This document shows, one piece after another, positions 22,599-54,473 of a DNA stretch of 64,000 nucleotides. The position numbers and the translations under genes were made by a program. Each line of letters opens with the position of its first letter. Position 1 is the stretch's first letter. The stretch lies in the NCBI GenBank assembly GCA_963920765.1, contig OY987248.1, positions 2,857,001-2,921,000 on the forward strand, written 5' to 3'. The notes under the pieces were generated by a model. It had not been told where the DNA came from, did not search any database, and worked only from the letters and a program-made list of their open reading frames with translations. Origin of the DNA: Ulota crispa. Taxonomy: Eukaryota > Streptophyta > Bryopsida > Orthotrichales > Orthotrichaceae.

Positions 22599-22602
22599 TT
22601 AA

Positions 22603-23246
22603 CCCCTAAATGCCAAAGGCACCCAATTTGGGTGTTTACAAAAATTTGAAGATGAATAAAATCTTATCAAATCACTATTTTTGGCATTTTCTTTTTAATA
22701 CAAGTTTGTTTTGAAGTCTATTTTCAATATCAAAAATCCGATTTTGAAAATGAATGTTCATGATTTTTCTATTCAAGATTTTGTACAAGGGTGTCCACTG
22801 CAATCTTGAGTTTTCTAGTGTTGGAAGATTTTGAAAATGAGCCCCAAATACACTAGAGCTTGGAGAAAAATCCACATTAGAAATCCATTTAAAAAAAATG
22901 TAGGAGTAAATTTTGAAAGCAATAAATTGGGTGAGGTTAAACATGTAATGACCTTAAACCTCATATTTGTTTGAAGACCAACTTTTTAGATTTGAAATGT
23001 GAAATGAGGATTAGGAGACTTCAAGTCACTTTTACAGTTCTAATACCCTCATGTTTAAACGTTATAATCTTTCAAACTATAAGTGATATTGTTGTGTTTT
23101 CTTTTTCCATGTAATCTCTAACATGTCAAGTTTAAATTTGTACGGTTACAGTTTTAAAAATCTTGATGAGATGTATGAAGAGGTTGATTGTTTGTTCACT
23201 TTCCTAAAACGTCGAGAAGTTCAAAAAAGCCTTGGACATTTAGGGG
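22603..23246. mobile_element. TTAA-flanked piggyBac-like MITE, copy A1
   Basis: It is 644 bp. The left end is TTAA-CCCCTAAATGCCAAAGGC; the right end is GCCTTGGACATTTAGGGG-TTAA. TTAA is therefore an exact 4-bp direct repeat outside inverted termini. A related copy lies at 52958-53594 in the same orientation, sharing internal blocks such as 'gatttttctattcaagatttt' in part. It interrupts a dispersed repeat whose uninterrupted copy lies near 45.0 kb. It has no transposase. Assignment to piggyBac rests on the TTAA target and CCCY start. Confidence 0.75.
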
Positions 23247-23250
23247 TTAA

Positions 23251-23345
23251 ACTCTCACTTTTTTGGAAAGTGAAAAGCCTGAGGTTTTCCACCCGGGCCC
23301 CACATCGACGTATGTGCGGTAGACTGAGCCGTCAAAAGTTGCCTT
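23251..23345 (+). repeat. Right part of the dispersed repeat split by A1
   Basis: ACTCTCACTTTTTTGGAAAG followed by TTTTCCACC, CACATCGACGTATGT and GAGCC matches 45026-45110 (ACACTCACATTTTTTGGAGG and onwards). Confidence 0.65.
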
Positions 23346-24752
23346 GGAGGCGTGGACTTTGTATTATTGTTCGCTTTGCTGAGCCCTAAACCCAAGATTC
23401 TAAATGCAGTCAACGGCCATCATGATAACGACCGGGCCTCTCCTCCATCCATGGCAAAGCAAAAATCACAAGCTGAAGTTCCGGAGAAAACATGACATTG
23501 TTTACGAGGCTGAAGTAGCAGAGTCCACAATGGGAAGCTCCAGCCGTCAAATGGCTCTGAATCCTCATGGGCCTCAAAGCACCCTCTGCCTTTTGTTCCC
23601 AGGGGACACATACAGGCACTACAAGAAAACTGCCATAATTGGCACATCCAAATTGATTAAATGTATCTAAATTGACAAAAGAAAAAAGAAATCCAAATTA
23701 ACATGTTTGAATTGAAGTTGACCCTCTTCCCTTGTAATGAGAGTCCCCATTGAGCTTGGTGAAAGGGCGTTCTCAGCTGAGACACAGAAAAGAACCTTGG
23801 AAAAGACAGAAAGAGGCTAGGGTCCTATCATGTGTGCAATATTTGTAGCGGCTTGCAAAGGAGTTTGTAGGTCCAATGTGCCATTAGTTTAAGAACTGCC
23901 AAGAACATGAGAGGTAGGAGCACGTGGTTTGGGAGGCTAATCCCAAGGATGGAAAAATTGCACAAGAATTTGTTAAAGAATCAATTGCACTTTCCAACCA
24001 AATTAACAGAGACCGAATTTCCAAGCTCTACAAATTTGTTTTGAGTGCCAATTAGGACCAAGACATTTTCTTTTGGCAAAAGGAAGCCAAACTAACAACA
24101 GATTTAATAGACTTGGACAAATGTGAACTAATCCCTCCATTTGTTATCCACTAGACTATGGACATCTTTGATCTAGCGAAAAATGTTAGATCCAAAAAAA
24201 ATACCTTGGTTGAGACTTGAGACTACTTTTGTGCCGTGGCCATGAGAATCCCATTTGACTTTGTGGCCAAATTGTGGACAATTTTCTCCCATTGTGCATG
24301 AACCCACCTGCACCATTAATTAACCCTCGTCTTGACTGAGGACATCCTAAGCAATTTAGATAGCCCACGGGAACAACATTCACAAAAGTGGCTTGGTAAA
24401 AACATACCAGCTTTTTCTAGCTACAAAAGAAATGTGTTAAAGTTGGATTTTGGTGCACACTTGGCAGAGTTTTAGCCACTGGAGCTACTTGTGAAAATCA
24501 CATTTTGGGACTACTGCATGGGCGTACAGATTTACCAGTGAATTATGCACAGGCTGTCAATTCTGAGCTTGGCCGGCTTCTTCTGCAGAGCACTCAACTG
24601 GACTGAGTCCCAGTAAGTTTAAATACACAGATGGACATGTGATGCTGCTCCTTGTCAGTCAGTGTCTGCCTGGTCAGATTTCTCCTGTCTAGCAGAGGTA
24701 GCCTGACAGAAGGAAAAATCTCACCACTAAGGTAGAAGCACTCACACCCGAT
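23346..24752. other. Intergenic DNA, no gene seen
   Basis: Short open frames of 65-90 codons on both strands overlap one another and show no domains or conserved motifs. No tRNA or promoter could be supported. Confidence 0.45.
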
Positions 24753-25068
24753 AAGGTAGGAAGATCCATAAGCGTCAGTGTCCCCATAACCGTCATATCT
24801 CAAACCTTGGAAAATCTATGGAAGTGAATAGATGTAATGACAAGGATGTACAACATGTGAACATGAAATTTTAAAAGTGATTATGTGTGCAATGACAATT
24901 TGCTCTTTAAAATTCACAACTTATTCTCATAGTATCTACATAATACATTTGAAAGTGCAAACTTTTTTTTTTTTCTATTCCTAATAGGATTTTATAATTT
25001 GCTAGTTGTTTACTAATAGCCGTAATGTTCAAAACCCTTAGTTTGACGATTATGGGTGCTCCTACCTA
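24753..25068 (-). mobile_element. TIR element of the AAGGTAGG family, inverted copy
   Basis: The left end is TAAGGTAGGAAGATCCATAA and the right end is TTATGGGTGCTCCTACCTA. It is a reverse-orientation relative of 45389-45700: 'gaagtgaatagatgtaatga' here matches the complement of the block near 45.62 kb. About 316 bp, non-coding. Confidence 0.65.
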
Positions 25069-26001
25069 GTGTTTTTTTTTTCACCTACCACATGCCACAT
25101 GCCCTCCCAAGAATGGAGAATTTTGAGAGGGAGAGAGGAGCATTGGTCCAATTTCTGACAGGGTGGCCTCATGAGGCCCAAAAAAAAACACTGCTCCTAC
25201 CTTAAGTTAAGCAATTTTGCAACAAACAACGATCCCATGCAGGAAGATAAGAAACACTGGGATTGCAAATTTTTCATATGTGCAAAACTGAAATTATTAT
25301 GAATTTTGGGAGTTAGAAAATGCTTTGAATCTATTATCAAACTCTAAACTCATATAATTCCAATAATAACCAAATTACTTTCTACTTATTACTTTCTACT
25401 TATTACTTTCTACTTCACTTTGAGACATGTAACATGACTTAAATGATCCTAACCTTGAAAAGAACTAGTTACAAAGCACCAATCTCTGCTGATACTGGAT
25501 ATAGCGCCTTGTACAGTACAAGGTGGGTATGAGACGTTGTTGATTATGCGTGCTTCTGCCTTACGGGATTTCAAAACTCACTGACAAACCAAATTATCTT
25601 AAGAAGTTTTTCCTCAAAAAAACAAAACCGATAGTTTTTTTCTTTAGAAAACAAAAATTTCTCAAGCAGATTTGCATGTTGTCATGAGAAGATTATTAGT
25701 TTTTTGCACAATGAGGGGTGCAAAAAAATTCAACCTTTCCTTTCGGAGCGGCCTTGCATGAGAATCTTGGCTAAAAAGAAAAGAAACTACCATTTCAAAA
25801 ATCTATGAATTTGGGAGGGGAGAGGACAATTTTGAAACCTATGTGAGAAACGTCAATCCTTCTTTTACAAAAGGGGTGGAGAAAACCGTACTCAAGAAGA
25901 AGCATTTTTCGAGAAAAATAACATAGTTTTGAAACCCCTGGTACAAACAAGAAACACACAAAATAAAATGACGCCAGTTTTCCCAAGAAATTAAATCAAA
26001 A
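25069..26001. other. Intergenic DNA, no gene seen
   Basis: AT-rich, with poly-T runs and a short tandem ATTACTTTCTACTT repeated about three times near 25373-25415. No supported gene. Confidence 0.45.
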
Positions 26002-26005
26002 TCAA

Positions 26006-26844
26006 CCCCTAAAACTCCTTTGTGTTTACATCAAATGGCTTAAAATTGACCTCTCTCAATAAAACATTGAGTGGATCAAATTTTTGAATTTTTTTCAATA
26101 ATTTAACCTTAAAGATCTATTTTGTTGCTTACTTATGTACACCCTTTCAAAATTTTAGACTTTGTAAGGGCATATTTCATAAGATAATAACACTCAAAGT
26201 AGGATCAAAACTTTTTTTGAAGTTTCTCGAAAGCATCAGTTTTTATTTTGGTCATCCAAAATGATATCTTCCACTTTATGAATTTCTTGTGCAATTTTTT
26301 TTTTCTTGTAGAGCATGAAATTGGCTATGTGCCTCACAAATGTATGATCTTCCAATGATTAAAACATAGTGGAAATTTTTTGGAAGCAAGAATTACTTCA
26401 TTGAAATTATTATTTCACTAAGAAACTTCACTAAAGAGATTCTTATAGCAATAAATCTCAATTACAAAATATACATCAAAGGAATTATTTTCTAAAAATA
26501 AAAAGTAAATTAGAGATTATTACGTAGTCAAGAAGAGTTGACTACAATTTTTTCTCATTGACCAAGCCATTGTAAAGTGCTTTTGAACACTTTGTTGGGC
26601 GACACCTTTCTCAATCTCTTTGTTTCTGATTTTTTTAGGGATGCTTGTGTTGACACCTAAATCACATAGGATACCATATCTCACTAAAAAATTACTCAGT
26701 TCCAATTTCTTTTGGGTGGAACGCAACCTTTTCGATATGAGCACATACACCCTTATTTTCATAGTCTTATCTCAAGTGTTTACACAGAAAATGCTTGCCC
26801 AAACATCCAAAAAGCCCAAAGTGGGCTTCTTGGTCCATTAGGGG
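26006..26844. mobile_element. TTAA-type element N (tentative)
   Basis: The left end is TCAA-CCCCTAAAACTCC; the right end reads GGTCCATTAGGGG-TTAA, whose complement is CCCCTAATGGACC. The ends fit the CCCYTNA pattern of the other TTAA elements, with one flank base changed. The interior is non-coding and was not matched to another copy. Confidence 0.45.
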
Positions 26845-26963
26845 TTAAAAGATTTTTTTCCATTTTGCAATCAATTGGAGGCTACAATATATAGGGCATC
26901 CTAGCTTGTAGTTAAGTGAGCCCAAAAATAAGATTCTAAGGCCAAGAATTAGATCCATACAAT

Positions 26964-27580
26964 TGAACTAAAGGACCAAGCCCCCTTTTGGGGGACAAAT
27001 GGGAGTTTGGGAATGTACCTATGGTTAAACTACTTTGCGTGATTTATTTAATTTTTTATGGAAGATGGGGAATTCAAAGATCTACATGGGTATCTAATTT
27101 TTTCTTTATTATAACATTTATTGAAGAAGTTAAAAATGAATTTTTGGAAAAAGTCCAAATTGGGCAGCCCAAAAAATCTTAAAAACTGTATAAAAAATAA
27201 ATATAAATATAAATTAGGTTCTTTAGACTTATATATAGGTGGGCAGCTTTGAACTATTCAATTTTCATCTCATCAATTAAAATTGCATGATTCAAAGCTC
27301 CCCACGTCTATATAAGTCTAAAGAACCTATTTTAGATTTTTATTTGAAAAAAATGCAATTTTGAAAGAGGTTTTTGGGCTGTCCGGAGTCCCTTGTTTTC
27401 CATAAATTCATTTTTAGCTTCTTCAATACATATTGGAATAAAGAAAAATTTAGATGCCCACATAGATATTTAAGTTCCCCATCATCCATAAAAGTTTCAA
27501 AAAATCACACAAAGCAGTTTAGCCAGGTACATGCCCAAAATCCCATTTGTCCCCCAAAAGGGCCAACAGTCCTTTAGGGG
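26964..27580. mobile_element. TTAA-type foldback element B
   Basis: The two halves are inverted copies of each other. The left arm holds AAAGGACCAAGCCCCC and GGGGGACAAATGGGA; the right arm complements to CCCCTAAAGGACTGTTGG and GGGGGACAAATGGGATTTTG. Pairing continues to a fold point near 27.27 kb, where AGCTTTGAA faces TTCAAAGCT. The right flank is TTAA; the left flank is eroded (TTGAACTAAAGG). A related half-copy lies on both sides of the element at 51597-52262. Transcribed, it would make a hairpin of about 300 bp. Confidence 0.7.
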
Positions 27581-27832
27581 TTAAGTCATGCCACATGTCC
27601 CAAAGTGAGGTAGGAAGTAATGAGCTAAAATTAGTTTGGCTAGTATCAAAATTGCATATATCTAAACATCAGCAATGGATGTGGAACACTTTTTGACCCC
27701 CAAAATTCATAGCAATTTCAATTTTGCAAATAAAAATATAGAAAACTTGTAATCCCAATATTTCTTATCTTCCTACATGGGAAAATTATTTTTCGCCTCA
27801 AACTCTTTGTAGTTTTCTGCAAAATCGAGTAA

Positions 27833-28190
27833 CTCTTAAGAGTCAGATGGATGGCCGTGCTTGCCCTCTACAATGATTTCTACAGTAGTGTGGCAGGTGC
27901 CCACCCACTAAAATTTTGTTCTATAAAGTTGCAAAAGTCGTGCATGGTGCCCTCATGAAAGATGCAAGAAGGGCAGCTTGGGACCTAACACCATGTTTTC
28001 GAATCTTATCACAATTTGGGTTACAAAAAAAATGAATGCATCTCATGAGGTAATTTTTACCTTACATGATGGACCAGATGTTTACGGTCACTTCTGAAAA
28101 AAATCAGATTGAAAAACGACTTTTTTTTAGAATCACAGAATCTTTTTCCAGAGCAAAGGGACGTTTTTCATCCTTCTCGACATTTAGGGG
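27833..28190. mobile_element. TTAA-type element E2, decayed
   Basis: It matches 54114-54469 almost end to end (GTGCATGGTGCCCTCATGAAA and following, CACAATTTGGGTTACAAAA). The size is nearly the same (358 against 356 bp). The flanks are GTAA and ATAA where the sister copy has TTAA, and the left terminus is altered, so it looks like the older copy. Confidence 0.65.
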
Positions 28191-28194
28191 ATAA

Positions 28195-28813
28195 GTTATC
28201 GGTTAGGGGTGCTTCCACCTTAGTAAAACGAGAAGTGTGCCACCGAATCCTGACAATTTCCATGAAACCTTCCGAGGCGAATGCAAGAAACAACGGCCAA
28301 CGGGTACCAAATCAAGTGCCTGCATGCAGGTTTCAACTTGTCTCAGAATACTCACCTACTTTGAGAGTAACACGCTTCGCAAAGCCGCGCATGTTTGACA
28401 ACTGTCGAACCAACTGTTTCAGAAAATAGATTGCAAAACGGCAGCTTTGGATGTGCTTTCGCGCTCAAGTGCTCGACCCACAAAGCCAAAAATCTATTCC
28501 TCTGGAACACAGCGATGGAACTCGACGCAGATATCACGAATGCCTCTCTCGAAACTGCACAAGTACATTCTGACCGGAATTTACTTTCACATATTGTATT
28601 CTAAATTTGCGATGACGCGAGTACCAATCATCTCAAAACAGAAAGAAAACCGAAAAGTAGCATATTCCTCCATCGACTTTCAATACGCGATATCCGGGCA
28701 TTCACGTCAGACCATCTGAGGATGCTGGTCACAAAGCTGGGTCTGAAGAGAACAAAACATTCTCGAAAGATCCGCTTACTCTGGATACCGAAAAATGAAT
28801 ATACTTCCATGAA
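28195..28813. other. Unassigned DNA between E2 and the inverted-repeat arm
   Basis: G+C rises here and several open frames of 60-106 codons overlap on both strands. None has a recognisable domain. It could be a degraded gene end or a longer untranslated region of the neighbouring transferase gene. Confidence 0.35.
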
Positions 28814-31283
28814 ATAATTGTGTGAAAAAGGCTATGCAATAAAGAAGGTCCCGCTGCCACGTAAGATGATGATTCACCAGCCACACGAACGTTCCCGATA
28901 TAGAAAGACACCTGAAAGTCCAAATTTGCAGAGAACGAAATGCCTACAGTCCCAGCAAACTTGGACTTCCAAGCGCACTTCCATCAGCTCATGACGACAA
29001 TGCTCTTGCACAACACGATCAGCACCCACTCGCTTGGCTTCGTCCGCTGCAGCTCGCGTAATCCACCAATCCACCTCCGCATCAATCAGCGTCACAAACG
29101 CATTCTCACACGCAAAAAGCAACCAGACACAATCACAACTCCCGAAGAAATGTCCACAATGTACACCTGACAAGAATCAATCATCTACCAATTACAAATG
29201 CCTCCACATGCTTCCTCTGCTGCCGGTCCGCACAGCGCACAGACCTCCAGGCCGAGCTGCGTCCATCTTCCCATGGATCCTCGCAGGTCCGCTCCTCTCT
29301 TCTACTGACCGATCGCTGACCCTGGACCTTCAGGCCCGGACAACGTCTCCTCAAACGCTTCAATCGCAAGCCCAGCTCGTCGATCCGACTCAAAGGGCTC
29401 GTCCTATCCTCGCTCCAGCTACCTTACAAAATAAATGGAACGCTTCTGCCACGGACGCCCTACCCGCCGCTACGTCGCTCCACCTGGCTCCCCGGCGTTG
29501 CACTAGATCTGGCTCCTCGGCGTTGCGCTCTCCGCACAATGGGTGCTCGGGTTCCTCTCCCGCGACAAAATAAGCGCTGGGGACTCGCCCTCGGCTGCAA
29601 CGCAAGCTCTCTCTCGCCCCGTGACTTGCTTCGTCTTCACGCGCTCGCCCCGCCTCCCCGGTCGCGTCACGAAAGCTGTGGTGCCCCGACCGGACACGAC
29701 GCCTCCAGGGGTCGGTCGCTCTACGCGAACGAGGAGTTCCAGATGGCGTCGTCGCCTTCGCCGCAGCGCTGATGCACGTCCTTGAGCCGCTCCACGGACT
29801 TGCAGATGCCGCTGCACGTCCAGTCGAACGACGCCACGCACACGTTCCCCGCCTGCGCCTTCCACTCGCAGTCCGGCGGCGTGCCGCAGCACATGCTGCG
29901 GTCGTCGATGTGGTCCACGTCCAGCCCGATGATCCACGCCCCCAGCGACACGTCCTCGTTCGCGTACCGGTGCAGCAGCGGCCGGTTCACCTCGATGTAC
30001 CGCGCCAGGTCCTTGGAGATGGCGTAGATCTGCCCCGTCGCGTGCCGGAAGTACTTGTTCCCCTCCTCGCCGAACTTCCAGTACTCCGGCTCGTGATACT
30101 TCACGCCCTTCTGCGCCAGCACCGGCCCCGACTTCATGCACCCGATGTACACCCGCGGCTTCGCCCGGTGCCGGAACAGCGTCGCCCCCAGCATGGCCAC
30201 GTTCACGTGCACGTCGTCGTCCACCTTCACGTAGAAGTCCGCGTCCCACAGCCGCACCGCCGTCGCGAAGTAGATCTTCGTCTTCATCGACAGCTCGTGG
30301 TACCCCTCCACGTGGTCCAGCCGCAGGAAATCCTCGTGCTGCGCCGCCTCCGCCTCGATGGCGCGGTCCAGGATCCCCCCCGGCGTCGCGCTGTGCCCGA
30401 TCACGAACCGCATCACCACGCCCTTCTCCGCCTCCAGCTTCCGCAGCTTCTCGCCCTGCGGCATCCACGTCTCGCGCACCGAGTCCCGCCGCTTGCGACT
30501 GCTGAACGCCGTGTTGATCCCGATCACCACGAACGCCTTCTTCGGCCCCCCGCTCGGCCCCTGCGCCGCCCCCGCCGTCTCCAGCACCGTCGCCGCCTGC
30601 CGCGACTCGCCCCCCGTCCCCTTCTGCGACCGCGCGGCCGACAGCTCCGATTCCAGCGACGCTATCGTCTTGTCCAGCCTCTGGATCACGTCGTGCGTCC
30701 GCGACGCCTCGCCCACGATTTCCGTCTTGCCGTCGCTCGACCTAGGCTGCGGATCGCACTCCGTCCTCACGTCGTCGTTGAACTCCGGCCCGCTCCACAT
30801 GCGATTCGTGAACAGCAGGCCCACGCAAAAGCTCGCCACGCACAACACCAGCACGCCCCTCCATGTCACGCCCCCACTGCCCACTATCTTCCCCCTCATC
30901 CGCATCGCTGCCCTCCCGGCCACACCACGCCCCGCCTCAAGATCGCACCCAATTTGTGGCCCTCCGAGCCCTCCTGCTCTCGTCCGCTCGGTCACATCAC
31001 TCTGTTCCAGCCCTAGCTCGGCCCCCGGCGTCCCACACCGAATCTCACAACCTCTCCTTCAATCTTGAAAACCCAGGACCGCTACAGGTAAGGACAAAAC
31101 CTAGGGTTATCTCGAGAAAATCTGCACTCACCGACGAGGACAAAGAATGATGCCACCACGCAATCCCTCAAAGTTTAACCTAAATAACAGATGCGAGCGC
31201 TCCTGCAGAACAAGATGATGAAAGAAAAAAGTGTGGAGATGATGTTAAAGCGCAATACCAGATCCGAGGGCGCAATGCGTCAC
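28814..31283 (-). repeat. Left arm of a 2.4-kb inverted duplication
   Basis: It is the reverse complement of 55327-57752. Identity is essentially complete across 29721-31052 and a little beyond the stop codon. Outside that, the 3' flank (28814-29500) is clearly homologous but carries scattered changes, and the 5' flank (31053-31283) is more diverged with small indels. Similarity ends at CACACAATTATTT at one edge and CGTGACGCATTGC at the other. Confidence 0.88.
29721..30905 (-). CDS. Beta-1,3-galactosyltransferase (GT31), copy 1
   Basis: A single-exon frame of 394 aa starting [13 protein letters not shown]. Upstream in-frame sequence lacks another ATG, so this start is chosen. It has a type II signal-anchor (about residues 15-33, [15 protein letters not shown]), a DUF4094-like stem region ([11 protein letters not shown]... 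[18 protein letters not shown]), then a galactosyltransferase domain with [19 protein letters not shown], the DxD motif KVDDDVHVN and [17 protein letters not shown]. The C-terminal [15 protein letters not shown] and [14 protein letters not shown] blocks are typical of plant B3GALT1-8-type enzymes, Golgi transferases adding beta-1,3-galactose to glycans. It is very GC-rich against its AT-rich surroundings. The protein is identical to that of the inverted copy at 55675-56859. Confidence 0.93.
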
Positions 31284-33070
31284 GAAGCGAGGCACATGTC
31301 CTGAATTGTGAGACACAGACGCGGCAGCGAGAGATCCGACTCCGAAGCTCCAAACGACCACGCAGCGCGCGGACGACGTCGTCCACTCGCGTACTTGGAC
31401 TCTTCGCACATCCCGGTGGGCTTGTATTTTGAAAGGCGAGACAAAAGGAATAACTCGAACCCTAACGCTAGTGTGAAGCGCTTTCGAGTGACGATGTTTG
31501 CTGGCTCGGGCTCACGCTGGCCGTCTGCTAAAACTGTCTTCACTCCCAACGTATGCGAGACGACGAACTCTACGGGAGGACGAGGTGCAGAAAACTTTTG
31601 TGTCCAGCTTTTTGGAGAGGCTTGCACTTCCCAAACATATTTTTAGTAAACTTTTTCTTTAAAGAAACTAGTGTGGCCCTGTGCCGTTGGCCCAATTTTC
31701 ATCCTAATTTTATCAGGTTTTTTTTGTTCCCCATTTTGTACATAATAGTAAGAATAAAAGTAGAAAGTGAAAGTAATTCCAAATCCCACAAAATCAAGCC
31801 CGTGCACACCTCCTTGGCGAGAGCTTTCCAATGATATCAAGAATGTTACCAAAATAAGAACAAAAGTAATTTTCTAAATTTTTAATTCATACAGAGTTTT
31901 GAAATTCAATGACTTTCCCACTGTAGGCCCAAATGTCACAAAATCAAGCCCGTGCATCCCTTCTTGGTGAGAGTTTTGTGATGGTACCAAGCAAGCAACA
32001 GGGACACACGGTTTGAGAGATCTCAATGTGACAAACAAACATCCAAACAAACAGCCTAATTTAAGATATTGATTATGCTATATTTAACTGAGTATGAACT
32101 ATACAAAGTCCATAAACAATAACCAAACAATTAAAAGTTGGATAAATATATGCAAAATTTTGGGAAATCTTCCTATATTTTACATAATCCATAGTTATAC
32201 ACATAGTTCACAGTTATAGACATAGTCCATAATTACATGAATATTCCAGCTTTAGCTAAATACTAATAGTTGGTGCTTGCTACGCTATGTATGTACCATT
32301 AGATTTTATTAGAATTTTCATATGTTAGGTAGAATGTAAAGGAAAACATTTAGCAAGTTTTTAAATTGTACCTATGTGATGATATCACATAGTGTAAATG
32401 CAATATTACAAAGTTTGGGATGTGATATTATAGAGATCTTTGTAATTTTAGTAGTATGGTATGGTATTAAATAGATTGGAGATGTGATATTTTAGAGATC
32501 AAGTGTGATATTACAGACGTCACTATGATTTTAGAAGTATGATGACCTAGTTGCATCTAGTTCATTTTTGTTCATATTTTTTGAACTCATGTGGAAATAG
32601 CTATGAATTTTTCAAATGAAAATCATAAAGGCTCTATAAGCATATATGTATACCCTAGAACATTCAATGTTGTTACATTGAAGAATCCAAGATGTATTTT
32701 TTGTGAATCCAAGATGTAAGTTTGTGTTAGTGGATGCATGCTTGTAGAGCCAAAATTTGTTTTCAAACCTCTTACCTTAGTTTATTATAGAATCCACCAA
32801 AACCAGTTCCTTAATTATTGAAGATTGCCAAAGAGGATGAAGCATACAAATTTGGAGCTTTTGAAGCAAAGTAAATAATGGCCTAAGTAGATTCCATGCA
32901 AAAAATCTTCATTTTTGCAAAAATATTTGTTTCTTTTATTTTTACTATTACTAAGGCGATTACCCTTGTACAAAAATCATGAAGCACTTAATGGTCAAAC
33001 TAGTTACACAAACAAAAAGGGACACTTGCTCTTTTCGCATTTAAGTTTGCTTCTGAATTTTAAATAATTA

Positions 33071-33133: not shown

Positions 33134-33621
33134 CTTCATTTTTTCCATCCATTCATATGTTGTTGAATAGTTGTGTTGGTTTTTTAACATTATCTTGTAT
33201 ACACTTCCACATTTTCCTTTTCCAAATGTTTCATTTGCCAGTATTCTACTATTTGCAATGTGCAAGTATGTTTCACCTCAATAAGTGATTGTCTTGTGCA
33301 AGAGAAGGAGTTCAATGTATGACTTGAAGAAGTAAATTTAAAATTTAAAAAATAACAATAATAATAACCAGGCACAAACGTGACTCTACATCGTAAAGGA
33401 AACAATTCTTTCAGAAAGGGCTATCCTTTAATCCATGTTCAATTTTAGAATGAACTTTGAATCATTTGTTTTGAATTTTATTCGTGATTGCAAAAAATGG
33501 ATTTCACCATACAAATGTGGTTTATAGATCATAGCCAAAAAACTTGTATGAAGAAAATCCTTCAAAAAAATCTTTTAAATTACACATTGTTATAATTTTA
33601 GAAATCCACCTTGGTCCTTGA

Positions 33622-34545
33622 CCCTTTAGTGATCGGTTGACCACTTTTGGGTTGATTTTGGTACTCTGTGATTTTTGTCATTTTTGTTCTATTTAATTTG
33701 CAAAAACACAAAATGTAATGGAGTTGGGGCATCAACTTGTGCTCCTCGTGGAATAAATTCCAAAGTAAGACATAAAGAAACATGGTAGTTATGTGTGTTT
33801 TACATATGAAGCTAGGACTTTCATATGGGTATAACAAATGAAATACTAATTCAATGCAACCATGACGTGGCCCCAAAGCCCACATATTACACCCAAAGCA
33901 TAAGGTGCTAACTCTCTACTAGTTGTGCAAAAGATGCATGGTTTATTTAGAAGTCCTACTTGTGGCGTATTTTAGCTACAACATTGCATAATCCATGAAA
34001 TCTTAGGCTCCAAAGGTTTGCAATGCTAAATGTAGGACCTTGTACCTCAAATGACACCCAATGTAGATGATATTGACCAATTGGATTTTGTCAAAACATG
34101 TTCCATGCATGATGTATCCAACCGTATATGTGTGGACACGTTTGTATTCTTTCAATGCTCAATTTCACATTTGTGAAATGCATAGATTGACTCGAATTTT
34201 TTATTATTTTTTAGAAGTGCAGTAACCTATAATGGGGCAATAGCCTTTACAAATTCCACCACTATCAAAAGTTTCAATTGCACAATTGACTCTAATTAGT
34301 TAGAGTGTCTCACATTTTTGCACAACAAGTTTTTTTGAATCATCAAGCTTCTCACAATTCTCACGTGGAATTATCCTGATAGATCAAACTTTTTTATATA
34401 TATTCATATCGCCAAAGTTTATAACTTTGATATGTCCGATCCGATTTGATTTTAGAACCACAGATTTTGTCCTTGAATGTATTTTGCATACCGTATAGTG
34501 AAAAATTTGAGGTGCTCCCCCAAATGGTTGATGGTCACTAAAGGG
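33622..34545. mobile_element. TTAA-type element F
   Basis: The left end is TTGA-CCCTTTAGTGATCGG and the right end complements to TTAA-CCCTTTAGTGACCATC. It is 924 bp. The left flank TTGA is one change from TTAA. The termini match those of element G at 45899-46802 (CCCTTTAA-GACCAC), and the sizes are similar, so they appear to be one family. Non-coding. Confidence 0.65.
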
Positions 34546-34708
34546 TTAAGTGATGAAGAGTTTGAGCATCCAATTTATGCATTCCGTGTCATAATCATAT
34601 GATCGTGTCATTGGCACAAGATCTACATATCCTTTTTAAAAGGTCCATTGTGCTATACCAAAAATCTAGGTCAACTCATAAAATGAAATTGAGTTATATT
34701 ACGTGATA

Positions 34709-39310: not shown

Positions 39311-39375
39311 AATAGGGTAGGATCTAGAATAGGTTTAGTATTAATAGGGTAGGGTCTGGTATAGGTTTTAGTATT
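39311..39375. repeat. 32-bp tandem duplication beside element C
   Basis: AATAGGGTAGGATCTAGAAT, then AGGTTTAGTATT, is repeated immediately with small changes (GGGTCTGGT). It ends exactly at the TTAA of the next element. Confidence 0.75.
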
Positions 39376-39377
39376 AA

Positions 39378-40294
39378 CCCCTAAGTCCCTAGGGCCTTTA
39401 TTTTGTCAAAAGACACCCAAAATTGTGATTTCTACTGCAAAGAGTAAGTTTGAAAATTGGTCTTTTTGTATATCTAACCATGGGATCTTGTACTAGACTT
39501 GTATAAGAATGTGCACACAAAAATCCATAAACTTTGACTGCACAGATTGCAAGATATTTGCATTTGAATTGTAAAAAACAAGCTTCTTTGCACCTTGCAT
39601 GATTAGATTATTTGACTTTGAGCTTTTTTGACATAAATTTTTTGTACTGCAGAGTTTTGAGGTTTATTTTTTTATGGTGGGAAATTGAGTTAAGAATCTT
39701 AAAAAAAACAAAAACCAAAAATACCTAATTTTCATTCTTAAAGAAATCATTAGGTGGATGAAGGTTTGAGATTGAACAAAAATTTAAATTGTTAATAACC
39801 CTACAATGGAATTGAAACGCAATAATTCCAACGATGGGATTGTTCTAAAAATCAAACTTCACCCTCCTCAACAATTTTTTTTGAAAAAATGTTAAACTTG
39901 CATTCAAAAATGAAGTTTATAAGTTGTTTTTTCAAGAAGATGCTTGAATTGCCCAAAAAACAAGATTGTCCATAACTTTCTCACAACTAGTCCAAATGGA
40001 ATGAATCAAAGCTTCAGATGTATACAAAACTTTAGCCTTTTTTTTTTCCTTTTTTTTTTTTAATTCAAAATTTTTAATTTTTTTTTCTACCTGATTTATA
40101 TAAATCTTTGCTTATCTAGGCATAACTTTTGCTTTTGGACAGATTGGAATAAAAATTATATTCTCCAAAGGCAAAAGCTAATGTGTTTTCCTATCTTCAA
40201 AAAATGTTTCAAAAAATCAAGACAAAAATTGAGGCTGTAGGTACCTGCCCAAATTCTCATTTGTCCCCCGAGGGGACACTCAAGGATTTAGGAG
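39378..40294. mobile_element. TTAA-type element C
   Basis: The left end is TTAA-CCCCTAAGTCCCTAGG; the right end complements to TTAA-CTCCTAAATCCTTGAG. The right end also carries GGTACCTGCCCAAATTCTCA followed by TTTGTCCCCC, the same subterminal block as element B. Length 917 bp, non-coding. Confidence 0.55.
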
Positions 40295-40298
40295 TTAA

Positions 40299-44080: not shown

Positions 44081-45388
44081 TAAGGTAGTCTGCTCATAAA
44101 TTGTCCAAGCATTAAAACCCCACCTTCTCAAATGTACCCTTATTGTACATGTTTTTTTTCATAAGTTTTCAAAATGTACACAAAGAATACATTTGAGAAG
44201 GTGGGCAATTTTAGAGACTTATGACCTTTCCACTTTAAAATTTCATAACTAATTCCACAAAGTTCCAAAAAATACGAAATAACTTGGATTGGATGTCAAC
44301 TCTTCTTGTCTCTCAAGAAAAATTTACTAAAAAAATAGTTCAAGAAGTTTCACCTCCCAAAAATTCAGTTTCAGCTGTTAGATGGATGGTTTATGAGCAC
44401 ACTACCTTAGTTCCTTTATCTTTCCCAGAGCTCTAGGATTCCTATGCAGCAGGAAAGTTGACATTGGAACCAAACATGGAAGTTTCGGACCTCAGTACAA
44501 ACCCACCAAAGGAGATGAAATTGACCACCTACAGAATATAGGCTGATAGGCATATACTTGCCTTCGCAAAAGAAGAGAACTGAGCTTTAATTTCCACCTG
44601 GCCCCACAAACACTTCTGTGCAATATACATAACATTGTTAACCAGACGCTGACCTCCCCAGCATGTTCCCCCCGATGCCTGGGAGGGGAGTTTAGTTATA
44701 AATATGTAGCTCTCATTGGTGAAGGGGCAGGGCCATTGCATGTCATCCGCTGAAATTCTTCTCAGATTGAGAGAGTAAAAGGGTCCCTTTTAGCAAAGGT
44801 AAACAATGTTATGTACCACTTCATTTTACTACATATTTGTTGATGTGGGTCAAGGCGGAAAAGCTCAAGTGTTTTCCTAAACAAGGGTAATAGTAATAAT
44901 TTGCCCCCTATTTTTTATAGTTCAATTGTATTCTCCTCTAAAGTTTGAGACTATAGTAGGGGCATTGAATTCAAATATGCATTCAAATTTCTCAAATTCA
45001 ATCTCCCAATGGTAATTATCTAAACACTCACATTTTTTGGAGGGTGAAAAACATAGTGCTTTTCCACCTTGGCTTCACATCAACATATGTACATTAATAT
45101 GAGCCCAATATATCAAGCCCAAAAACAAGGGAATTGATATGTGCACATCTAGGGTTCAAGATATGCACACAGCAGGAGGGGTAAATTTTAGATGTTTACC
45201 ATCAACAAGTTGAATTTGAAAGTTTTGAATTCAAATTTAAATTTAAAGACCTTCATATTGTCTAGAACTTCAAAGGAGGTTACAATTGAACAAAGCCTAG
45301 TGGAAAAACTTAGCTAGGGACAAAATTATTACTTTTATCCTTGCTTATAAAAAAAAAGTAAGCTTTTCCATTAGGCATTGTATAATTG
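44081..45388. other. Intergenic DNA holding an uninterrupted dispersed-repeat copy
   Basis: Positions 44838-45110 match 22411-22598 plus 23251-23345. The point where the other copy carries element A1 is here plain TAATTATCTAAACACTCAC, near 45013-45030. No gene is supported. Confidence 0.55.
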
Positions 45389-45700: not shown

Positions 45701-45898
45701 AACAACCTCCTTTGTAGATCTAGCCAAAATGAAGGTTTCTAAATCCAAATTTGAATTCAAAATTTTCAAATCCAACTTATTAATGGTAAATATCTAAAAT
45801 TTATTCCTCTTGCAATGTGCATATCTCGAACCCCGGGTGTGCACATATCAATTCCCAAAAACAAACTCAATTTATAAAGTGATGGAATATGGAATTAA

Positions 45899-46802
45899 CC
45901 CTTTAAGGACCACGCAACCATATTTTGGTCGCTGGGAGTGGTTTTTGGCTTGTAGGTTGAAATTGCTCAATAATTTGGAATTTGGTCTTGAAGTACGCAT
46001 GTGATCACAAGAATTTTGCATCCATCTAAAAAAATAACAATGCAATTGGGTATGTGAGTTGATAAATAATGGTGTTTATACGGCATGGCTTCAAAATATG
46101 TAACCAATTTTTGTCAAAGATGGAACAAAGCAACAACACAATACATCAAGTATGCAAGAAGAATGTCAAATTTTAATTGCACAATTCTAAAAAATTTCAA
46201 ATTGCTTAAGAATGCGTGTATTGTTTTCATATACGGTAGTAATATAATTGTAGTATTTGAAGATCTACTAAAATGTTGTTGTCATTTTGGCTTTAAAATT
46301 TGTCATCTTACATTTAAGGCCAATTCTTGATTGTTTTCACCAATTGGATTTTCTAGAATAATTATCAAATTTCTTGTAGAACCGTTTTAGGGTAGCAAAG
46401 AAAGTGGGTTTTTTGACCCTTTTTGTCCACTTAGCTACACCTTGTGATTGCTATTTTTGTCTATTTTGTGTGAAACTAGTCTTGTTGAAAAGGTGGGAAA
46501 TCTTGCTTTCTAGAAATGTAAGGCTCTTCTCAATTGAAACTTGCATGAAAGGTTAACATTCAAAACTAAACAAGAATGAAACACAAGAGATTTTTTGTAT
46601 ACGGCTCACTCAGTCAGTATAATATTTCACCTCCAAAGGTAGATCTAGCAGAAATTTTGGTGCTTTACAATAAACAAGATGTACTTCCCATTTGTACGGT
46701 TGGATTATTGAAAATGGGTCCATATTTGAGTCAATTCCAAATCTAAGCTTAGAGCCCCTGTTTTCAGTGGATTCTGTGGAAATGGGTGTGGTCGTTAAAG
46801 GG
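45899..46802. mobile_element. TTAA-type element G
   Basis: The left end is TTAA-CCCTTTAAGGACCACGC; the right end complements to TGAA-CCCTTTAACGACCACAC. It is 904 bp, non-coding, with termini like element F. The right flank reads TTCA on the plus strand, one change from TTAA. Confidence 0.68.
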
Positions 46803-46806
46803 TTCA

Positions 46807-47444: not shown

Positions 47445-47654
47445 CACTAGGGGGTGTCAAACCCCTTGTTTTTTCACATGATAAATTTTGGTGATTTTGC
47501 CCATAACTTTATCACCTTTTGCAATTATCATGTGTGATAACTCTATTACCCACCTCCAAAGGTGGGTGATAGAGTTATAAAGTTATGACATAAAAGTTAT
47601 CAAGTGATCTTGTAAGTTGTAACTCTCTTCTAGCAAGCTAACCAATGGTTATGT

Positions 47655-48045
47655 GATATTAAAGAGGTAAGAATGTGATATTAAAGAGGGAGAATGTGAT
47701 ATTAAAGAGGTAAGAATGTGATATTAAAAAGGTAAGAATGTGATATTAAAGAGGGAGAATGTGATATTAAAGAGGTAAGAATGTGATATTAAAAAGGGAG
47801 AATGTGATATTAAAGAGGTGAGAACATGATATTAAAGAGGTGAGAACATGATATTAAAGAGGTGAGAACATGATATTAAAGAGGGAGTATGTGACATTAA
47901 AGAGGTAAGAATGTGACATTAAAGAGGTGAGGATGTGATATCAAAGAGGGTGAGGATATGATATCGAAGAGGGTGAGGATATGATATCGAAGAGGGTGAG
48001 GATATGATATCGAAGAGGGTGAGGATGTGTTATTAAAGAGGTAAT
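47655..48045 (+). repeat. 22-bp tandem array, forward arm
   Basis: The unit GTGATATTAAAGAGGTAAGAAT repeats about 17-18 times with variants (gagggagaatgt, gaggtgagaacat, gagggtgaggatat). The variants occur in runs, as expected of unequal exchange or slippage. Confidence 0.93.
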
Positions 48046-48109
48046 TGTGCTTTTAGTGGTATGATTTGAAGCAACATTATATTACTAAAATCACAATTAC
48101 CTCTATAGT

Positions 48110-48475
48110 ATCACAACTTTGCTCTTTGTGATAATATGGATACAATTATAGTGACCTTTGTAATATCACATTTAGACCTTTGTAATATCACATTTAGACC
48201 TTTGTAATATCACATCTTGATCTTTGTTATATCACATCTTGACCTTTATGATATCACATCCTCACCTCTTTAATATCATATTCTCCCTCTTTAATATCAC
48301 ATCCTTGCCTCTATAGTATTGCATCTTGACCTTTGTAATATCGCATCTTGACTTTTGTAATATTGCATCTTGACCTTTGTAATATCGCATCTTGACCTTT
48401 GTAATATCGCATCTTGACTTTTGTAATATTGCATCTTGACCTTTGTAATATCACATCTCCACTTTTGTGATATTA
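48110..48475 (-). repeat. 22-bp tandem array, reverse arm
   Basis: The unit TTTGTAATATCACATCTTGACC is the reverse complement type of the forward array (GGTCAAGATGTGATATTACAAA) and is repeated about 15-16 times. The side nearest the middle keeps CTCTTTAATATCACAT forms identical to the forward array; the outer side has the TTTGTAATATCGC form. Confidence 0.92.
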
Positions 48476-48817
48476 TCACATAGATATAATTTGAAAACTT
48501 ATTGAAATTTTTATTTTGCATTTGACTTAAAATATGAAAATCCTAATTAAATGCTAATGGTGAATGTGCAACGTAGCTAATGTCAATTGCTAATTTTAAT
48601 AAGAAAAATTTGAAGTTTTTCGTAACAATCCACTCCATTATGCATTTAGGGAAAAGGGGAAAGAGTTATGTAGGGAAAGTGGTCATAATTATCAAGTGAT
48701 TTGTGAAGCTTTGTAAAGGTGATAACTTCTAGGGTTGCCTTGTGAGCAACTACCCATACCTTTGAATGAATTTCAAGATAAAATTATCCCAAAATCAAAA
48801 GTTTGACACCCCTAGTG

Positions 48818-50158
48818 AATAGCCTATTCACGAACAAGATAAACTATTCCATTGTAGACATTGCTTCCGTTGTGGGGAGTATGAATATAGCCCCATTCAA
48901 TCAAAATATTGAAAAGAATGTTGAGGCCCAATTTTCATCTTATTTCATCTGGAAGAATCATTTTGACCGTCAGTTGGGATTAAGAATTGTTACGTTGTAG
49001 GAAGTAATTTGTTTCAAATGAACACCAATGTTTTTGGGTTGACATGGTTACTGTGGACTAATGCAGCCTATGTAACATGATTTCCACTTGATCACAATGA
49101 ACAAAACAACCAAGTCAAATAGTTAGTAATTTGTATAATGAACGTTGGTATTGTTGATTACAGAACATTTCCAAACCTTTCAAGGCCCATGCACTTTCGC
49201 GAGTATTTCAGAATTTGTTCTTGTATGAATAAAATGTCAACATTTTGACAAGCTCCATTATTATTTTTTAAACTGTAATCGTACAGATTCAAACTAGATA
49301 AGTTAAAGATCACACAGGAAAAGAAAACATAACAATAACATTTATGGATTGAAAGATTATAACATTTGATCCAGAGGGTGTTAAAAGTGTGAAAAAGAAT
49401 TTGAAGTCTTTCAAATCTTCTTTTTACATCTCAAATTTAAAATTGAGGATACCAGAAAAATATGAGTATATAAAGTACAACATGCATAACCCTAATCATT
49501 TTAGAGCTTTTTAAAATCTACTCTACAAAATTTTACATTAATTTTCTAATGTGATTGTTTCTCCAAGTTCTAATATACTTTAGGCTCATTTCCAAGAGCT
49601 CTCAACACTAGAAAGTGAAGATTTGTAATGGGCACCCTCGCACAAAATCTTAAATAGAAAAATGATAATTAGTCATTTTCAAAATCAGACTTTTAATACT
49701 AAAACAAGACTTCAACAATAACTTAAAAAATAATAAAAAAATCACTGCAATTAATCAATCAATCCTGAAGAAAATTTAGGCATCACAAATTACAAACAAG
49801 AAGGGACAGTTGTGATCCAGGTGGGCCTTGAGGGATAAAACACTTTATGATACTGGCAAACCATGTTGTGTCCTTTATAAAATCACATTTGCTCCAACAC
49901 TTTCACAGTTTTTAACAAATGGTGTAATATACATCCAGTATTAACTTCTACCACGTGTTTATCTCATGTTTTGTACTTCAATCTGACTTGTCAAATCAAC
50001 ACTTGTGTTCACAAAGGATGGGGTGCTTCACCTTAACTGCTGTCATGCATAAATGGTCATGGATTATACACTAAGCTTAGATCTTGGGACATTTAATTTG
50101 TCTGATAGAGACCACCAGTGTAGAATTGAATCGGTCATCAATCGTGTTGGATGTCAGG
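48818..50158. other. Intergenic DNA, no gene seen
   Basis: The segment near 49540-49700 (CCAAGTTCTAATATACTTTAGG and onwards) resembles, in reverse, part of the A1/A2 element interior, so it may be a fragment of that family. No coding region. Confidence 0.4.
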
Positions 50159-50540
50159 TAAGGTAGAAATACCATAAACGGTTAAAATAAAATAAGCCAC
50201 TTTAGCCTGTAAGATATGGGGATTTTTTGAGAAATTATGCTCAATTTGTGCAGGAACAAGGATAAAGAAGAGTGAAAAATAAAAATAAAAATAAAAATAA
50301 AAACAAATATTTACATAAAATATGGATTTAGGGTTTGGTCCAATTCTGGTTTCATAGGTGCACCTTAAACGGTTACATTTAGAATTTTGTTCCGAAACAA
50401 GTTTGAACCAATCAAATGTGAGGAAATAGCATTTTCTTAAAATGTTTCAAAATCTTTTTCAGATGCAGCTATTGTTGGTTTCAGAACAGTCTACTTCTCC
50501 AAGTAGAGGTTAATAACGGTTTATGGTATTCCTACCTTAA
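50159..50540. mobile_element. TIR element with TAAGGTAGAAATACC ends
   Basis: The left end is TAAGGTAGAAATACCATAAA and the right end TTTATGGTATTCCTACCTTA, about 25 bp of inverted repeat; 382 bp, non-coding. The ends resemble those at 24753 and 45389 (AAGGTAGG, CCATAA). Confidence 0.7.
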
Positions 50541-51592
50541 GTGGTTCATTCATAGAATGTTGTGTCAGTCTCTAAAAGCCGCTTTACATTAGGAGTCAAG
50601 GTCATGAAAACTTGGGTCATTATGACCAAATTTTTAGCCTAAATGGTTTCAAGAATGGCCCCAAGTGCCCATTTTAATACGAATATAATGGGGTTAACTC
50701 TCTTGGGTGTAAAGGCTTTGAGGTCAAAAAGTCAAGGACACTAGAACAAAATTTGAAGATTTTAGGAGAAAAGGGATAAAAAAAGAAACCAAGGATAATT
50801 GTTGATATTTTTACTCCATCTTACAGTGTTGCGTATCTGAAAAGAATGTTTTTAATTCAAAAAATTATATTTAACCCCTAAAGGCTTTTGACTACGTTTT
50901 CACCAAAATTGCTCCAAAACTACCATTTCTAATACAAGTACCAAATTCTATAAAAAATATTTTTGGACACTTGTAGCCGTAAGATCTTATAGTACACTAG
51001 TACCAAAAGATATGGAATTTTTTCAAAAACTCCCACCATGTAAATTGTAAGATATTTGAGTTCAAGTTGACAAAAAGCCATTTTTTGTTCTTGCAAAAAT
51101 ATAGGCAATTGCATTTGACAAGGCCATATTTGTACGAAAACATTTCCAAAACAATTGTATTTCTCTGATTCATTCTTCAAGGCAAGTTGGGTACACACTA
51201 CACACTACACACTTGAAAATTTTCATATCATTTGGAACTGTACAACACATGGAAAAAAATAGCAAGTAAAAGAAGTAGAAAATGATTCAAAACACTAAAT
51301 TGTTAAGAACTTAAGTATTGAAATGAAACATGCCGATCCCAATAGTTGTAATGTGGTAATAAACAATCTACATCCTTTGGCTTTATTGTTTTTCCAAAAT
51401 ATTGAAAATTGAGTAAAATAAAGGACTTAAAAAAATTTAGGGTACAAAATCCATATTAACTACTTGCAAACAGAATCTCCTCATTGCTTTCATCTCATTG
51501 ATCAAAATGGAATGATTCAAAACTTCCCACGCATACATAAATCTAAAGAATTAGTTTCAGTTTTTTTTGTAAATGTAATTTTTTAAAAGTTT
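50541..51592. other. Intergenic DNA with a half copy of element B
   Basis: A lone TTAA-CCCCTAAAGGC terminus lies at 50871-50885 with no partner found. Positions 51490-51592 resemble the right half of element B (ATGATTCAAAACTTCCCACG against ATGATTCAAAGCTCCCCACG). No gene. Confidence 0.5.
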
Positions 51593-51596
51593 TTAA

Positions 51597-52262
51597 CCCT
51601 TGAGCGCCCAGGCCATGTTCCAGGAAATACCGGCGTGGGTGACCTGTGGCCAAAAACTTATCCCTCACTGATTGGATACTGCAAATGAGGCAAGTTGACC
51701 GCTGAATCTCATGGTCAGGGTGAGGGCGTGGTTGAACTGATTTCTTTTGGAAAGAACGAGCGGTTAGATCTGGAGATTATACAGGTCAAAGTCCCCTTGA
51801 CTTCTGCAGGTTTAGCAAAAAATGGGGGTTCATTTTAGTTTGGGGCATCCTATTCCTATCAATAGCTTCACAGATTGTGGCAAAATCAAGAGGGTAGGTG
51901 GGGGTAGAAGTGTAGTACATGCTTGCAAAATTTGGGCAGTGTTTGAGCATCCCTTGGTAGTGAAATCTGCCTTCAAAGCAACGACCTCTGCATCAAGAAG
52001 TTCAAAATGGTCAGTCACTCTGGTTACGAGCCCCCCACCCCCATCAGCCAAAAACTAAGATTTCCCAGAAAACCCAATCTTTGGGCAATTCCAAGGCAAG
52101 ATACGGCCTATGGGAACTCAATCGGCCCACTACGTCCCATAACCCTTGTACCAGCCCACGACTAGGTACTGCTCCTAGAAAACAACCACTTGGATCTTGA
52201 CAAGGGGGACTCAAAAATAGAATTATGGGAGGCCGGTTTTGGGGACGTGGGCCGCTCAAGGG
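51597..52262. mobile_element. TTAA-flanked piggyBac-like MITE D, nested in a B-type repeat
   Basis: It has perfect TTAA on both sides. The termini are CCCTTGAGCGCCCAGGCC and, complemented, CCCTTGAGCGGCCCACGTCC. Length 666 bp, more GC-rich than its surroundings. It sits inside a B-type sequence: GAATGATTCAAAACTTCCCA lies to the left and GCTGCCCAAATTGCCCAA to the right. No coding capacity. Confidence 0.75.
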
Positions 52263-52266
52263 TTAA

Positions 52267-52957
52267 GCTGCCCAAATTGCCCAACAAACAAAGAAAACTA
52301 CATATCATGAAATAACTTTTGAATCATGTAGTCAAAAGTTATGAATTTTTTTGGATCTTAAAGCTATTCTTTGAAAAAATCATGTGTGAAAATTTCAAAG
52401 AAAAAAATGATAGACCCATTTGTATTGAGTTGCCCAAAATTGCTATGTTGTCAAGAAACACTATTTGGGCTTTTATTAGAATTAGCTATGGAGGACATTA
52501 AAATTGAGCACTAAAGCTAACTTCAGCCAACAACTTCTAAAAAAAAAAACTAGTAGAAGGTAGGTAGCTCAAATTACGTCCATTCACATATAATGCATCC
52601 CATACGTAGCCCAAGAATGGGTATGAGGTGGTTCTTGAATGGAAGCTTTTTAGTGTTAAAAGAAAAGGCATCTTTTATAGCAAGAGCCAATCACACTCCT
52701 TGATTTCACCTCATCTTTTTATAAGTTGCACATGGACGGTTTATGGGAGATATAGAATTACAAATAGGTGCCTACTACAAAAAACTTTGAAAATTCATCA
52801 ACAATTCAATAATGCCTGAAAAAATATGAAAAAAATTGTGTTACATTTAGCATCCATGTCTCTTTGTCTAAAAATTAGATAAAAAATCTTTGTGTCTTGG
52901 AGAGGCCATGAAAAAGTAGATCAGCCCTTAAATTGCTGCTTTTCTAGCTACCTACCA
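52267..52957. other. Intergenic DNA, continuation of B-type repeat
   Basis: The first tens of bases (GCTGCCCAAATTGCCC) continue the B-type repeat broken by D. The rest is AT-rich and unassigned. Confidence 0.4.
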
Positions 52958-53594
52958 CCCCTAAATGCCCAAGGCACCACATTATGGTGTTGAAAATACT
53001 TTGAACTTGTATAAAACCTAACCAAGTTTCTATTTTTAGTATGTTTTATTTTGAAACTATTATTTCTAGAGGCTAGTTTTAGAATCAAAAAACCAATTTT
53101 GTAAATGATAGATTATGATTTTTCTATTCAAGATTTTTGGCAAGGGTGTCCATTGCAATCTTGACTTTGTTAGTGTTGAGAGCTCTTGGAAATGAGCCTC
53201 AAGTACAATAGATCTTGGAGAAAAAATTACTCTATAAATTCATTTAAAAAAGTTGTAAATGAATATTTGAAAAGCGGCAAATTGATTGGAGATATGTATT
53301 TTATGTCCTTTAACCCCATATTTTTCATGTGACCACTTTTTTTAGATTTGACATTTGAAAAAAGGATTAAAAGACTTCAAGTCATTTTCAGAGTTTTAAC
53401 ACCCTCTTGATGAAACATTATAATCTTTCGATGAGTGTGTTTTTGTTTCCTCTGTGATTTCTAACATATATATGTAGTTTGATTTTGTATGGTCACAATT
53501 AAAAAAAACTAATATAACTTATCAAAATTTTGGCTTTCTTTTCCACTTAAAATAAATTCCTAGAAGCTCAAAAAATGCCTTGGACATTTAGGGG
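52958..53594. mobile_element. TTAA-type MITE, copy A2
   Basis: It is the same family and orientation as 22603-23246 (637 against 644 bp). The left end is CCCCTAAATGCCCAAGGC and the right end is GCCTTGGACATTTAGGGG-TTAA. The left flank is ACCA, so the duplication is eroded on that side. Internal blocks shared with A1 include GATTTTTCTATTCAAGATTTT in part and GGTGTCCA-TGCAATCTTGA. Confidence 0.72.
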
Positions 53595-53598
53595 TTAA

Positions 53599-54109
53599 CA
53601 GTCAAACATTTACCTTCAACACGGTTTCAAAGTTTCTTGAACATCCATAACATTCAGTAGCACTCAGCAGGCCTACCTTCCCTCCAACTGAAGAGTGTGG
53701 AATATTCCACACTCATTAGTAGCTAAGAGGATACTTGGCAAAATTTGTCAGAGAGTTTATGAAAGAGAGGCTCAGTTTAGTGCACATACGTCGATGTGGG
53801 GGCCAGCCATGTCAGAAAATTTTAATTTAATTTAAATTTTTTAATTTAAATTTTTTTTGTTAGGATGAAATTCGTGGATGTTACTTGAAGAGAATGAAAG
53901 GCAGCCTCTCTTTAGGCTACTGAATGCATAACATTATTGACCAAGGTTTATTCCTCCCCTCAACCCTTGAGGAATATCCCTCCCTATATGCCTGGAGAGG
54001 GTTTAGTTAAAGATTGTGAAAGCTGATTGGGCCTCGGTTTAGATCTGACGAATGGTATTCACTAGGGGCTTCTCATATTTGGGAAGCAAGAGGGACTCCC
54101 CAATGAAGG
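53599..54109. other. Intergenic DNA, no gene seen
   Basis: It has an AT palindromic run near 53818-53862. TGCCTGGAGAGGGTTTAGTT near 53990 resembles 44678-44700, suggesting another dispersed repeat. No gene. Confidence 0.45.
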
Positions 54110-54113
54110 TTAA

Positions 54114-54469
54114 CCCTTAAAGGACGGATGGATCACCGGGGCTTGCCCTGCCTATAGAATTCTATAGTGTTTTGCACATGGGCACTAGTAGTATTGCTTC
54201 AAGAAGTTGGAAAAATTAACAGTGCATGGTGCCCTCATGAAAATTGCAAGAAGTGCAGCTTTGGGAGCTAATACCATGTATCACAATTTGGGTTACAAAA
54301 TAAAACAAATGTATCTCAAAAGGAAATTTTTTGCCTTCCATGATGCACTACGCTTTTATGATCACATTTGAAAAAAATCAAATCAAAATTGGTCTTTTTC
54401 TGGGATACAGAATTCATTTTCAGAGACAAAGGACGTTTTTTTTTTTTTGTCAGTGCCGACGTTTAGGGG
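54114..54469. mobile_element. TTAA-flanked element E1
   Basis: It has perfect TTAA on both sides. The left end is CCCTTAAAGGACGGATGG; the right end complements to CCCCTAAACGTCGGCACTG. It is 356 bp, the better-kept sister of 27833-28190. A T-run near 54436-54448 is internal. Confidence 0.72.
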
Positions 54470-54473
54470 TTAA

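Follow-up and report, generated by a model that had tools for sequence, protein, structure and literature searches.

Elements in the window

The stretch analysed here (the window) comprises 64,000 nucleotides of the genome of the moss Ulota crispa (contig OY987248.1, positions 2,857,001 to 2,921,000, i.e. C7:2857001-2921000 of the 275-Mb assembly that was searched). It carries a set of candidate piggyBac-type miniature inverted-repeat transposable elements (MITEs), which are the subject of this report. Their positions in the window, with that of one repeat copy used below, are as follows.

A1, 22599..23250 including the TTAA flanks (element 22603-23246), plus strand: 644 bp, non-autonomous piggyBac-type element, TTAA on both sides
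A2, 52958..53598 (element 52958-53594), plus strand: 72% relative of A1, right TTAA kept, left TTAA lost
N, 49226..49739, minus strand: interior match only, 72% to A1, ends not definable
C, 39374..40298 (element 39378-40294), plus strand: 917 bp, TTAA on both sides
D, 51593..52266 (element 51597-52262), plus strand: 666 bp, TTAA on both sides, low copy
E1, 54110..54473 (element 54114-54469), plus strand: 356 bp, TTAA on both sides, ends CCCTTAAAGG and CCCCTAAACG
E2, about 27835-28190, plus strand: 71% relative of E1, degraded
F, 33618..34549 (element 33622-34545), plus strand: 924 bp, left flank TTGA, right flank TTAA
B, 45895..46806 (element 45899-46802), plus strand: 904 bp, left flank TTAA, right flank TTCA
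G, 26968..27584 (element about 26968-27580), plus strand: degraded, right end of CCCCTAAAGGAC type with TTAA, internal inverted repeats
Empty-site relative of the repeat flanking A1, 44821..45090, plus strand: 75% identity, without A1, CTAA at the junction position

An initial annotation of this DNA had reported an exact TTAA on both sides of A1, C, D and E1, and this was borne out: in all four it lies immediately outside CCCY...RGGG-type ends, with C ending in AGGAG. Of the other elements, for which a partial TTAA had been reported, F and B have one changed flank each, and A2 and G keep the right one; the degraded elements are E2, G and N. The CCCY-type ends are also present, as inverted repeats beginning CCC(Y). 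These repeats are short (10–18 bp in A1, B, D and F), and the two ends of C, like those of E1, match each other less well than in these four elements. The delimitable ranges add up to about 6.5 kb, close to the 6.9 kb first estimated. The left flank of D is 58% like the interior of C, so D could have inserted into an element resembling C.

Such termini are enriched in the window when 20 first-order Markov sequences are taken as control. There are 16 exact TTAACCCY termini (both strands pooled) versus a mean of 5.0 and a maximum of 10 in the controls. With one substitution allowed in the ends, nine end pairs with matching inverted repeats were counted, the controls giving a mean of 0.5 and a maximum of 2. 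Four of the nine are A1, F, B and D; the remaining five are probably wrong pairings or chance occurrences, and in three of these the left end is the same. C and E1 are absent from this count because their two ends differ.

Genome-wide copies and target sites

At least 40–42 matches, mostly full length, were found genome-wide for each of A1, C, E1, F and B. For A1 there are at least 40, the other copies being 91–94% identical and most of them full length. D has two other near-full-length copies, and several further matches share only its termini or parts. An exact TTAA on both sides was seen in 5/8 copies of A1 (window copy included), in 14/21 copies of E1 (window copy included; left side 19/21, right side 16/21) and in 8/10, 6/10 and 8/10 other copies of C, F and B, respectively; because the copies examined were the best-scoring ones, these fractions may lean high. 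The boundary of E1 is sharp, with four near-fixed flanking bases on each side and a mixed fifth position on both. For the A type, exact matches to a 17-base terminus number 2520 in the assembly and are preceded by TTAA in 2118 cases (84%), and the reversed pattern, used as a control, occurs 0 times assembly-wide. Since each element has two ends, we infer more than 1000 A-type copies in the genome. The comparison of genome-wide copies that had been proposed for defining ends and target sites gave TTAA and no other duplication.

A1 allows a direct look at its target site, as it is inserted within another repeat. At the occupied site, two copies of TTAA are present. A search with the joined flanks found at least 38 other copies of this host repeat that span the junction, with 81–89% identity; the empty sites considered here are paralogous copies of the repeat. 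A1 is absent from all 20 copies fetched (the best 20 of the 38). TTAA stands at the junction in 14 of these 20, in one case depending on alignment gap placement, and at least one change is seen at this position in the remaining six; the 75% empty copy within the window has CTAA. As the empty copies mostly have a single TTAA and the occupied site has two, TTAA is the target duplication of A1 and not a part of its end. Among the loci fetched, no empty site was found at the filter used for 17 other insertions (six A1 copies and 11 transposase elements). An empty site of D in loci L050, L024 and L038 is only suggestive, with low-complexity sequence at the junction. The host repeat of A1 is itself an element of about 286 bp, whose inverted arms (22397-22454 and 23273-23330) are each about 58 bp long.

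piggyBac transposase loci

The piggyBac transposase domain PF13843 (DDE_Tnp_1_7) gave 120 matches in at least 116 loci of the genome, the best with 254.5 bits. Of 528 candidates 116 were scored, and every listed match is above the curated cut-off. No match was obtained in 14 control genomes (0/14). None of the 120 matches lies inside the window; among the matches listed on C7, the nearest lies about 160 kb off. Twenty of the at least 116 loci were retrieved together with 3.5 kb of flanking sequence on either side. At the threshold set, TTAA-exact inverted ends enclose the transposase in seven of them, and four further loci (L026, L029, L031, L038) have such ends with up to one base changed per end. 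The end pair of L028, one of the seven, is probably mispaired; when it is left aside, ten transposase elements with paired ends measure 5.0–6.0 kb. Markov controls gave 0 end pairs per 20 loci, and swapping the flanks between loci gave 39/380. Because of this latter frequency, an end pair alone is no proof for a single locus.

In the PDB, the open frame of L021 matches the piggyBat structure 9c0f (E 1.7e-16) as well as 6x67 (E 3e-13), taken here to be T. ni (Trichoplusia ni) piggyBac. Its motifs ITVDEMMV and ILMDNFFSS, with the first two Asp, align to both structures, and a third motif, MRGVDVADQ, is found in the next frame. In L023, all three Asp motifs lie within a single open frame. The motifs of both loci fit the DDD catalytic triad, a pattern that was not matched in some of the 20 transposase frames. 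A Cys/His-rich tail pattern is visible in L021, L029 and L034; a Pfam search at E<=0.001 gave no zinc-ribbon match for L021 and L029. These two loci have Gln/Glu-rich frames of 430 and 464 aa, respectively, which lie between the left end and the transposase, on the same strand as the latter. These frames have no Pfam match and may correspond to an N-terminal exon. Across the transposase core, the open frames of the 20 loci range from 108 to 476 aa. Identity among the frames above 200 aa (n=16, 103 pairs) is 25–100%, with a median of 35%, and therefore many lineages coexist in this genome. The cores of L028 and L029 (C2:36765124-36766008, plus strand, and C2:36779670-36780554, minus strand) lie about 14 kb apart in opposite orientation and share a stretch of 978 identical bases; outside these cores the two loci differ.

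Ends of the MITEs compared with those of the transposase loci

Thirteen MITE ends were compared with 24 ends of transposase loci, with 2000 shuffles of bases 11–30 as a control and raw counts per end. The left terminus of A1 shares 27/30 bases with L021 (5742 bp) and 26/30 with L029 (5212 bp), and no shuffle reached the best match (0/2000). The ends of F match L026 (23/30) and L025 (22/30), again with 0/2000 shuffles for each end, and the left end of D matches L024 (23/30; 0/2000). For B, 22/30 bases are shared with L029 and 20/30 with L020, reached by 1/2000 shuffles on the left and 13/2000 on the right. Shuffles reached the best match of C in 17/2000 cases on the left and 876/2000 on the right, and that of E1 in 63/2000 and 1379/2000, the right ends of both being not above chance; for the right end of G the count is 69/2000.

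On terminal likeness, the A family is thus strongly linked to piggyBac transposase elements, the link being suggestive for F and D and weak for B. The search for an autonomous element with the same ends, which the initial annotation had proposed, therefore produced partners for A (L021 and L029), suggestive candidates for F, D and B, and none for C, E and G. Since C, E and G are without a partner in the sample, their assignment to piggyBac rests on the TTAA duplication (C and E) and the CCCY ends. A partner encoding a transposase of another superfamily, which would have spoken against the assignment, was not encountered: the A1-ended elements encode DDE_Tnp_1_7.

Interpretation and alternatives

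Taken together, these elements are almost certainly piggyBac-type MITEs of a land plant, moved by piggyBac elements of 5–6 kb that share their CCCY ends. The superfamily assigned at the outset is supported by the TTAA duplication, by the CCCY ends and, for A, by DDE_Tnp_1_7 partners with DDD motifs. The MITEs, having no transposase of their own, would be mobilised in trans by the transposases of elements located elsewhere in the genome, and would keep only the terminal 30–40 bases or so that the transposase recognises. C, E, G and B could depend on other lineages of piggyBac present in this genome. If the chemistry described for T. ni in the consulted part of PMC7351741 applies, the transposase would free the 3' end, make a hairpin with the four nucleotides TTAA and open it; the opened ends would then be joined to a new TTAA, and the donor site could be repaired without a scar.

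Several observations weigh against this interpretation. The right end of A1 is weaker than the left, with 21/30 bases in common with L021 and L029, a value reached by 46/2000 shuffles. Beyond about 30–40 bp of terminus A1 has no match to L021 or L029 within the element, and is therefore no simple deletion of either. The likeness of D is one-sided, its right end being not above chance (711/2000 shuffles), and the best loci of B differ between its two sides; the ends of F, D and B are similar to those of transposase loci, but none of the three is cleanly paired with an element that has identical ends. A same-ended element is absent for C, E and G among the 20 of at least 116 transposase loci. 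TTAA-ended pairs around the transposases exceed chance but do not occur at every locus (7/20 versus 39/380 with swapped flanks), and in L021 and L029 the transposase domain is distributed over at least two frames.

Elements of this kind in plants could also be Stowaway-type MITEs of the Tc1/mariner superfamily, which duplicate TA; TTAA would then be read as T-TA-A by coincidence, the element being A-CCC...GGG-T. The centre of TTAA is indeed TA, and the symmetric A...T end fits the four exact elements of the window as well. However, the outer bases should vary under this reading, yet 21/21 copies of E1 have the outer T on the left, and 19/21 have the outer A on the right. The base beyond TTAA is mixed in E1, so the boundary comprises four bases. 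Moreover, TTAA is found in 14/20 empty sites of A1, and the A1-ended elements encode PF13843; this explanation is very improbable. Even more remote are Tourist MITEs of the PIF/Harbinger superfamily with a 3-bp TTA or TAA duplication. Tourist elements are frequent in plants and TTA is contained in TTAA, but E1 has four conserved bases on each side instead of three, a 3-bp duplication would shift the inverted ends out of symmetry by one base, and the partner transposase is of the piggyBac type. Membership of both Stowaway (TA) and Tourist (TTA/TAA) was rejected from the E1 flank statistics and the 4-bp boundary. A last alternative is that TTAA belongs to the element ends and that nothing is duplicated. 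Its near-invariance beside the ends would agree with this, but the uninterrupted copies of the host repeat, available for A1 only, mostly have one TTAA and the occupied site has two, and we consider this hardly credible.

With piggyBac-type MITEs as the preferred explanation, a broader proposal can be made, which we regard as tentative and somewhat less than an even bet: mosses might harbour a piggyBac radiation that is old, independent and strongly amplified, with many transposase lineages (identities down to 25%, median 35%) and more than 1000 copies of at least one MITE family, possibly still active.

Host genes and other features

The initial annotation had taken the DNA to be from a plant. 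The presence of a LEAFY gene and of a plastid-type psbB within a chromosome supports this, and a moss is the probable host. The LEAFY DNA-binding domain is found at a single locus (C4:16277526-16279258). The DNA-binding exon reads KMRDYVHCYALH, with Asp at a position that is His in Arabidopsis and Asp in mosses, a difference for which a literature search gave no confirmation. The LEAFY SAM domain occurs at six loci, only one of which has the DNA-binding exons; the SAM-only loci are C1:33973746, C3:21851572, C10:3335821, C5:13921926 and C2:25193267. The plastid-type psbB and, next to it, a gene that is presumably petB occupy 13819-17540 of the window, on the minus strand of the chromosome. psbB matches photosystem II CP47 chains at more than 1000 bits. 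Its reading frame is open from end to end, which points to a recent insertion of plastid DNA or to a join made during assembly.

The window further contains an inverted duplication of about 2.4 kb with 95% identity (about 28853-31284 and 55327-57700), including 1473 identical bases (29580-31052 and 55528-57000). Its first arm encodes a DUF4094/galactosyltransferase protein, the identical part being common to both arms. At 47629-48522, about 900 bp consist of tandem repeats of 21–23 bp in two mutually inverted blocks.

Comparison with known systems

The rarity of piggyBac in land plants, put forward initially, fits the literature found, but the superfamily is already listed there: in the portion consulted, a 2015 survey has PiggyBac among the superfamilies of every taxonomic group studied, land plants included (PMC4438587). 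Plants are named in passing among the hosts of piggyBac-like elements (PBLEs) in the accessible passages of PMC10813416 and PMC8086355. Repeat tables, seen in excerpt, give 1230 PiggyBac fragments (122 kb) for a fern (PMC6890710) and 1 for feather grass (PMC8319324). As for mosses, the available sections of a Physcomitrella paper mention, as a tool still to be tried in that moss, the transposon of T. ni (PMC5505980), those of an article on Physcomitrium transposons contain 0 occurrences of piggyBac (PMC7466625), and those of a moss genome paper use "piggybacking" in another sense (PMC10619864). No account of moss piggyBac was found in the literature searched, whose coverage was partial and did not extend to Repbase. 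The superfamily is thus already known, including in land plants, and what is unusual here is the abundance of the A type and the divergence of the transposases (median identity 35%).

Because it leaves no scar, piggyBac is widely used in genome engineering. A land-plant lineage with a large and diverse piggyBac population would offer transposases that are already adapted to plant cells. Its presence in a moss also raises the question of whether the superfamily was inherited or horizontally acquired, and TTAA MITEs may go unclassified when plant repeats are annotated.

The elements described here resemble T. ni piggyBac and other PBLEs in their TTAA duplication, their CCCY ends and a PF13843 transposase with three Asp motifs, and possibly in the Cys/His-rich tail pattern visible in L021, L029 and L034. 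They differ from them by their land-plant host and by the length of the full elements, 5.0–6.0 kb compared with about 2.5 kb for T. ni piggyBac; unlike the latter, L021 and L029 hold the Gln/Glu-rich frame of 430–464 aa between the left end and the transposase, on the same strand. Animal piggyBac MITEs are short, protein-less and TTAA-flanked, and share little beyond terminal bases with transposase elements. The MITEs of the window are like them in all these respects, the sharing being mostly of terminal bases, and unlike them in the plant host, the co-occurrence of several families and the dissimilarity of the two ends of E1. With the plant MITEs Stowaway and Tourist they have in common the size class and the high copy number, but they are set apart by the duplication of TTAA instead of TA or TTA/TAA and by another transposase.

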